Of a DNA stretch of 64,000 nucleotides, positions 16,334-44,401 are shown one piece after another. Below the pieces are notes generated by a model. The model saw only the letters and a list, made by a program, of their open reading frames with translations. It made no database searches and was not told the DNA's origin. The stretch covers positions 1 through 64,000 of the forward strand of contig LJZT01000007.1 of the NCBI GenBank assembly GCA_001314905.1, read 5' to 3'. This DNA comes from Phormidium sp. OSCR (lineage in GTDB: Bacteria > Cyanobacteriota > Cyanobacteriia > Cyanobacteriales > Geitlerinemataceae). Numbering within the stretch: position 1 is the stretch's first letter; each line of letters begins with the position of its first letter. Position numbers and translations under genes: made by a program.

Positions 16334-16430
16334 GGCAACAGGCAATAGGCAATAGGCAATAGGCATAACCCACCCCTAACCCCTCCCAAGAGGGGATGGC
16401 AACAGGCAATAGGCAACAGGCAATAGGCAT
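16334..16430. repeat. Heptamer repeats GGCAATA/GGCAACA split by a palindromic element
   Basis: Two clusters of four or five heptamers (GGCAACA, GGCAATA) at 16334-16365 and 16397-16430. The palindromic element copy at 16367-16395 is inserted cleanly between them, suggesting the element entered a pre-existing heptamer array or that both expand together. Confidence 0.9.
16367..16395 (-). repeat. Palindromic interspersed element, copy 1
   Basis: Reverse-orientation copy of the recurring unit: AACCCACCCCT, spacer, then the CCCCTCCC-AA-GAGGGG hairpin. Forward copies elsewhere read CCCCTCC..GGAGGGG..GGGTGGGTT. Confidence 0.85.
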
Positions 16431-19061: not shown

Positions 19062-19115
19062 GATATTCCCTGTTCCCTGTTCCCTTCCCCTCCTGGGAGG
19101 GGCCAGGGGTGGGTT
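19062..19115. repeat. Heptamer repeats followed by palindromic element, copy 5
   Basis: Three TTCCCTG (GGGAACA family) units at 19062-19085, then a forward-orientation palindromic element (19087-19115: CCCCTCC-TGG-GAGGGG-CCA-GGGGTGGGTT). It sits between the convergent ispH and DUF1822 genes and may act as their terminator. Confidence 0.85.
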
Positions 19116-44245: not shown

Positions 44246-44401
44246 AACTCCGACTCTAATACCATTTTTCGAAATCAGTTGCTATACATTAACGCCGGGG
44301 GAGGGCCAACAGCCGTCCCCTCTTGGGAGGGGTTAGGGGTGGGTTCCCCTACAGAACTCTATAGCACGACAGCCAAGAAAATTGGTATAAACTCCGACTC
44401 T
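44246..44401. mobile_element. MITE-like element with 12-bp flanking direct repeats
   Basis: Core of about 130 bp bounded by near-perfect terminal inverted repeats: ATACCATTTTTC at 44259-44270 and GAAAATTGGTAT at 44377-44388 (11 of 12 bases complementary). Exact 12-bp direct repeats AACTCCGACTCT lie immediately outside (44246-44257 and 44390-44401) and look like a target-site duplication. The core carries a copy of the palindromic interspersed element (44317-44345). No coding capacity. The structure is that of a non-autonomous transposable element; the mobilising transposase is not in the window. Confidence 0.7.
44317..44345 (+). repeat. Palindromic interspersed element, copy 10
   Basis: Forward copy CCCCTCTTGGGAGGGG..GGGGTGGGTT inside the MITE-like element, the only copy in the window not next to heptamer repeats. 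Confidence 0.85.

Follow-up and report, generated by a model that had tools for sequence, protein, structure and literature searches.

Does a short, non-coding element lying between two bacterial genes represent a mobile unit and, if so, what length of target does it duplicate, and can it account for the spread of the palindromic repeat that it carries? These questions are raised by a locus at positions 44246-44401 of the window, the stretch of 64,000 nucleotides that was analysed here, taken from a draft genome (G000) of 4.69 Mb in 187 contigs. The locus is intergenic and is flanked by two divergent genes, of which the minus-strand one encodes a GAF/PAS histidine kinase and the plus-strand one a response regulator. 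A sequence-only reading had regarded it as a recently inserted miniature inverted-repeat transposable element (MITE) bounded by 12-bp target duplications, which had captured a palindromic repeat and might explain how that repeat family travels. Our analysis retains the transposon and its carriage of the palindrome, and corrects the length of the duplication and the role as a vehicle. In the account that we consider highly probable, a 128-bp non-autonomous MITE, which duplicates a 3-bp TNA target, entered a pre-existing tandem repeat, and its palindrome derives from a single ancient capture, after which the composite has been mobile as a unit.

Structure of the element

The features of the locus are as follows.

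44246-44257, plus strand: unit 1, on the left side of the insertion, of a 13-bp tandem repeat (AACTCCGACTCTA followed by AACTCCGACTCT) presumed to predate it
44257-44259, no strand: left 3-bp target-site duplication, TAA (TNA/TNA flanks throughout the family)
44260-44387, plus strand: MITE proper, TACC...GGTA, 128 bp, non-coding (boundaries from the TNA duplications across the family)
44260-44270, plus strand: left terminal inverted repeat, TACCATTTTTC, with weaker similarity out to about 30 bp
44303-44314, plus strand: left arm of the central palindrome that belongs to the MITE itself, GGGCCAACAGCC (consensus GGGCGAACAGCC), forming the left junction of the embedded repeat; assigned on the basis of a plain copy in genome G004 that reads GGGCGAACAGCCGTTCGCCCC
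44315-44345, plus strand: embedded SDR-like palindromic repeat, 31 nt, GTCCCCTCTTGGGAGGGGTTAGGGGTGGGTT, whose junctions are shared by the composites throughout the genus
44346-44352, plus strand: right arm of the MITE's central palindrome, CCCCTAC
44377-44387, minus strand: right terminal inverted repeat, TACCAATTTTC
44388-44390, no strand: right 3-bp target-site duplication, TAA (TNA/TNA flanks throughout the family)
44390-44401, plus strand: unit 2 of the tandem repeat presumed to predate the insertion, on its right side

The near-perfect inverted ends described in the sequence-only reading are borne out, with 11 of 12 positions identical between ATACCATTTTTC (44259-44270) and ATACCAATTTTC (minus strand, 44377-44388), and both the exact 12-mer AACTCCGACTCT, at 44246-44257 and again at 44390-44401, and the embedded palindrome are where it had placed them. 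The element has no coding capacity and contains no gene; the sole listed open reading frame that spans it, a 102-aa frame that both starts and ends outside the element, looks like a chance occurrence.

A dispersed family with empty orthologous sites

The search for further ends that had been suggested for this locus was productive. The end motif ATACCAWTTTTC has 22 matches in the genome against 1 for a reversed control, and thus the MITE ends are not a product of chance; TNA precedes 17 of these 22 sites. All seven genomes of the genus contain the family, as does one genome (G009) from another genus of the same taxonomic family, and several of these have dozens of matches. Within its own genome, the window MITE is 89% identical to a copy on contig C33, which carries extra sequence ahead of the palindrome, and about 74-83% identical to the composite copies of sister species. 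Searches of plasmids, phages and viral contigs with the MITE gave no match, and a search of Rfam assigned it to no family. A sister form of 105 bp is represented by at least eight copies that are 99-100% identical, seven of them at contig ends: contigs C11, C36, C74, C95, C110, C158 and C164 terminate 96-99 bp into such near-identical copies, so that recent MITE copies have probably broken the assembly.

The orthologous site was compared in two relatives, G005 and G002, whose names we infer to be Phormidium willei BDU 130791 and Phormidium sp. SL48-SHIP, respectively (a further sister genome, G003, is probably Geitlerinema sp. P-1104). The check for an empty site proposed in the sequence-only reading gave the same answer in each, as the element is absent from both. 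The identification of a non-coding, non-autonomous transposon therefore stands: the element is a MITE, with shared inverted ends, a target duplication of constant length, no coding capacity, multiple copies and an orthologous site that is empty in relatives.

It could be argued that such a sequence is no transposon but a static hairpin repeat whose copies arose by recombination or slippage inside repeat tracts. The element does sit in a repeat tract, and in its plain form it shows good RNA folding (z = -4.9). Nevertheless, fixed ends, identical TNA triplets at unrelated sites, empty sites in relatives and near-identical dispersed copies all run against this explanation, which is largely refuted by the TNA duplications and which we regard as barely credible.

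The length of the target duplication

Complete copies carry TAA, TTA or, in rare cases, TGA as the direct repeat immediately next to TACC...GGTA. A script run over the fetched loci returned 47 candidate copies with identical TNA flanks, and identical flank triplets of any kind numbered 48, compared with 20.8 expected when partners were shuffled and a maximum of 35 in 10,000 shuffles; some of the end pairings in this tally are spurious and reduce the fraction, but leave the conclusion intact. When a single reading was taken per locus, identical triplets were found at about 7 of 10 copies in the genome of the window copy and at 17 of the 18 copies scored in G009, whilst most copies in the sister species also carry identical TNA triplets. 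No long direct repeat accompanies any other copy, a single 4-bp case being a spurious pairing. The target duplication of the family is consequently 3 bp (TNA) and not 12 bp, contrary to the sequence-only reading.

How, then, did the two 12-mers arise? Excision of the element together with one TAA leaves AACTCCGACTCTA-AACTCCGACTCT, a 13-bp tandem repeat in which the target TAA straddles the junction. The most suitable reading of the 12-mers is that a 13-bp tandem repeat was present before insertion and that they represent two of its units; this repeat is intact in none of the relatives compared. Alternatively, the MITE could itself create a 12-bp duplication, in which case the 12-mers would have been made by the insertion in the window. 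Duplications of this length are made by some IS4-family elements, and an exact 12-bp repeat does closely flank the ends. The empty sites bear on this choice in different ways. In G005, whose flanks are 88-92% identical to the window locus, the empty tract is of about the same length, contains two similar units and reads TCTAA where the element would insert; the alignment favours the TNA model, scoring 196.6 with the element and TAA removed and 181.7 with the element and 12 bp removed, and TCTAA lies at the insertion point in both aligned sequences. The tract of G002 falls short of the length expected under either model and, taken alone, scores higher with the 12-bp model (192.2, against 181.8 for the TNA model); we read it as a contraction of an unstable repeat that is ambiguous by itself. 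The empty sites alone are thus insufficient, and the length is decided by the evidence of the family. A 12-bp duplication would be the only genuine abutting repeat longer than 3 bp, would have to accommodate a full-length tract of two similar units in G005, and would make the TAA kept on both sides a coincidence; we judge it unlikely.

The embedded palindrome

Composite copies in G000, G001, G002, G004, G005 and G006 share the junctions AACAGCC/RTCCCC and GGGTT/CCCC (the slash marking the border of the palindrome), and some 16-20 composites across the genus have identical junctions. This constancy indicates that MITE and palindrome transpose together. In G004, a plain MITE has the sequence AACAGCC-GTTCG-CCCC and a right half nearly the same as that of the composite. 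From these sequence comparisons, the capture appears to be old and was probably one event before the genus diversified, with the composite transposed afterwards. The proposal that the element had captured the palindrome therefore survives in so far as the two are carried together, but the capture is not specific to the window copy, being common across the genus.

The palindrome itself is far more widely distributed. Exact matches to a 25-bp part of it occur at other positions of the window, against 0.00 expected in shuffles; two further copies, at 16369-16393 and 19089-19113, both lie in heptamer-type tandem repeats. The genome holds at least 60 distinct contexts, and the 60 examined form a sample that may favour close matches. 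In 38 of these the palindrome lies in heptamer repeats, for the most part (CTCTTGC)n, and the junctions are mostly the constant TTGCC/ATCCCC...GGGTTAT/GCC. Four lie within other palindromes of the GGGGCGAA..CCCCTAC type, three in MITEs and one more in a truncated MITE on contig C71, the remainder being found elsewhere, several in TCCCTRT heptamers. On the same contig (C71:12178-12301, locus L003), the palindromic repeat is also found in a tandem array with a period of about 30 bp.

These counts bear directly on the suggestion that the palindromic repeat family travels chiefly by means of the MITE. The composite subfamily has indeed moved as a unit in several genomes. However, with about 4 of 60 contexts in a MITE and 38 in heptamer repeats, where the junctions are mostly constant, the MITE is a minor vehicle, and it is very unlikely that the travels of the family are explained in this way. 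A tentative proposal, which we consider possible but somewhat short of probable, is that the 31-nt palindrome is itself mobile and enters hairpin tips and a fixed point in heptamer repeats, the central hairpin of the MITE being one such landing site.

Candidate partners and insertions into the family

Searches of five genomes for the end motifs, together with searches for transposases of three Pfam families, yielded no autonomous element with matching ends, which leaves the insertion sequence anticipated by the sequence-only reading without a counterpart in the genomes searched. Loci of PF01609 examined in G000, G001, G004 and G009 are without MITE-type ends, except for one MITE that hosts an IS4-family insertion, whilst the genus lacks transposases of the ISAzo13 (PF07592) and DDE_Tnp_4 (PF13359) types. 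In the genome of the window copy, none of the end-like sites with at most one mismatch is paired with an inverted end at the spacing of an insertion sequence; beside the sites inspected, the largest open reading frames were, by eye, not transposase-like.

Apparent candidates were rejected on inspection. A 1231-bp element in G004, with ends matching those of the MITE, had the appearance of a parent but is a MITE copy split by an IS1-family element with ends GGCACTGGT and an 8-bp duplication, TTCGGCTA; this insertion (C1:3493955-3495185; L125 200-1560) lies in the central palindrome of the MITE and is apparently frameshifted. A 1560-bp end pair in G001 is similarly a MITE split by an IS4-family element with a 10-bp duplication, ACCCTTGTGG, and the ends in G009 that have no listed partner belong to MITEs with truncated or altered right ends.

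The IS4-family insertion sequence encodes 443 aa in 1447 bp, has the ends CACTGGTGTCAAGTTAAGG and occurs at G001 loci L179, L181, L184, L188, L192, L196, L200 and L203, and also at L130. In each of the eight copies inspected, its 10-bp duplication can be read as belonging to a palindromic repeat (ACCCTTGTGG, a close variant or its complement in seven and CCCACCCCTA in one). This element seems to target these palindromes.

A proposed history

The observations can be arranged in a model in which a DDE-type transposase, acting in trans, would recognise the TACCAWTTTTC ends and the MITE would insert, with TNA duplication, at a TAA joining two units of a short degenerate tandem repeat. Earlier, in a common ancestor, the 31-nt palindrome would have replaced, once, the tip (about GTTCG) of the MITE central hairpin GGGCGAACAGCCGTTCGCCCC. 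Since that capture the composite would have transposed as a unit, and the palindrome may have spread mainly by its own route, into the tips of other palindromes and into tandemly repeated heptamers. The resulting order of nested insertions runs from the plain to the composite MITE, with solo palindromes, fixed in their junctions, beside them. In a group of strains that has several complete genomes, this order allows tests of how a repeat of about 30 nt moves. The locus also offers a caution, as a long direct repeat at one copy of a transposon can be a pre-existing tandem repeat, which is revealed only by the rest of the family.

Comparison with known systems

Nezha is a cyanobacterial MITE (Zhou et al. 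2008, as cited in PMC10969869 and PMC3733652). As far as these citing accounts describe it, it shares with other bacterial MITEs and with the present family a short, non-coding structure, terminal inverted repeats, a target duplication, many copies and the lack of its own transposase; the likeness drawn here is one of general features. A 3-bp TNA duplication is characteristic of the IS1031 subgroup of the IS5 family (PMC12016507) and is also made by the present MITE. The duplication thus fits this subgroup, but the ends do not, an IS1031-subgroup example having GA-type ends (GAACCTGTCTAGTATCT) and the present MITE ending in TACCA, and no transposase with matching ends was found. The palindrome, in turn, invites comparison with REP/REPIN sequences, which are short dispersed extragenic palindromes that act as landing sites for insertion sequences (PMC3116915, PMC3733652). 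The present repeat is likewise a short dispersed palindrome, but is without an obvious GTAG or CGTC terminal tag.

A further likeness, by description, is to the small dispersed repeats (SDR) of Nostoc. These are, in an account reportedly given by Elhai et al. in 2008, very small palindromic repeats found in heptamer tandem repeats and minitransposons. The present palindrome is similarly small and dispersed, and resides in heptamer repeats and a minitransposon, but it is about 31 nt long, SDR-type palindromes being of roughly 20-30 nt, and comes from another cyanobacterial lineage. The element is a new family member of the cyanobacterial MITEs that hosts an SDR-like repeat, an ordinary but well-resolved case.
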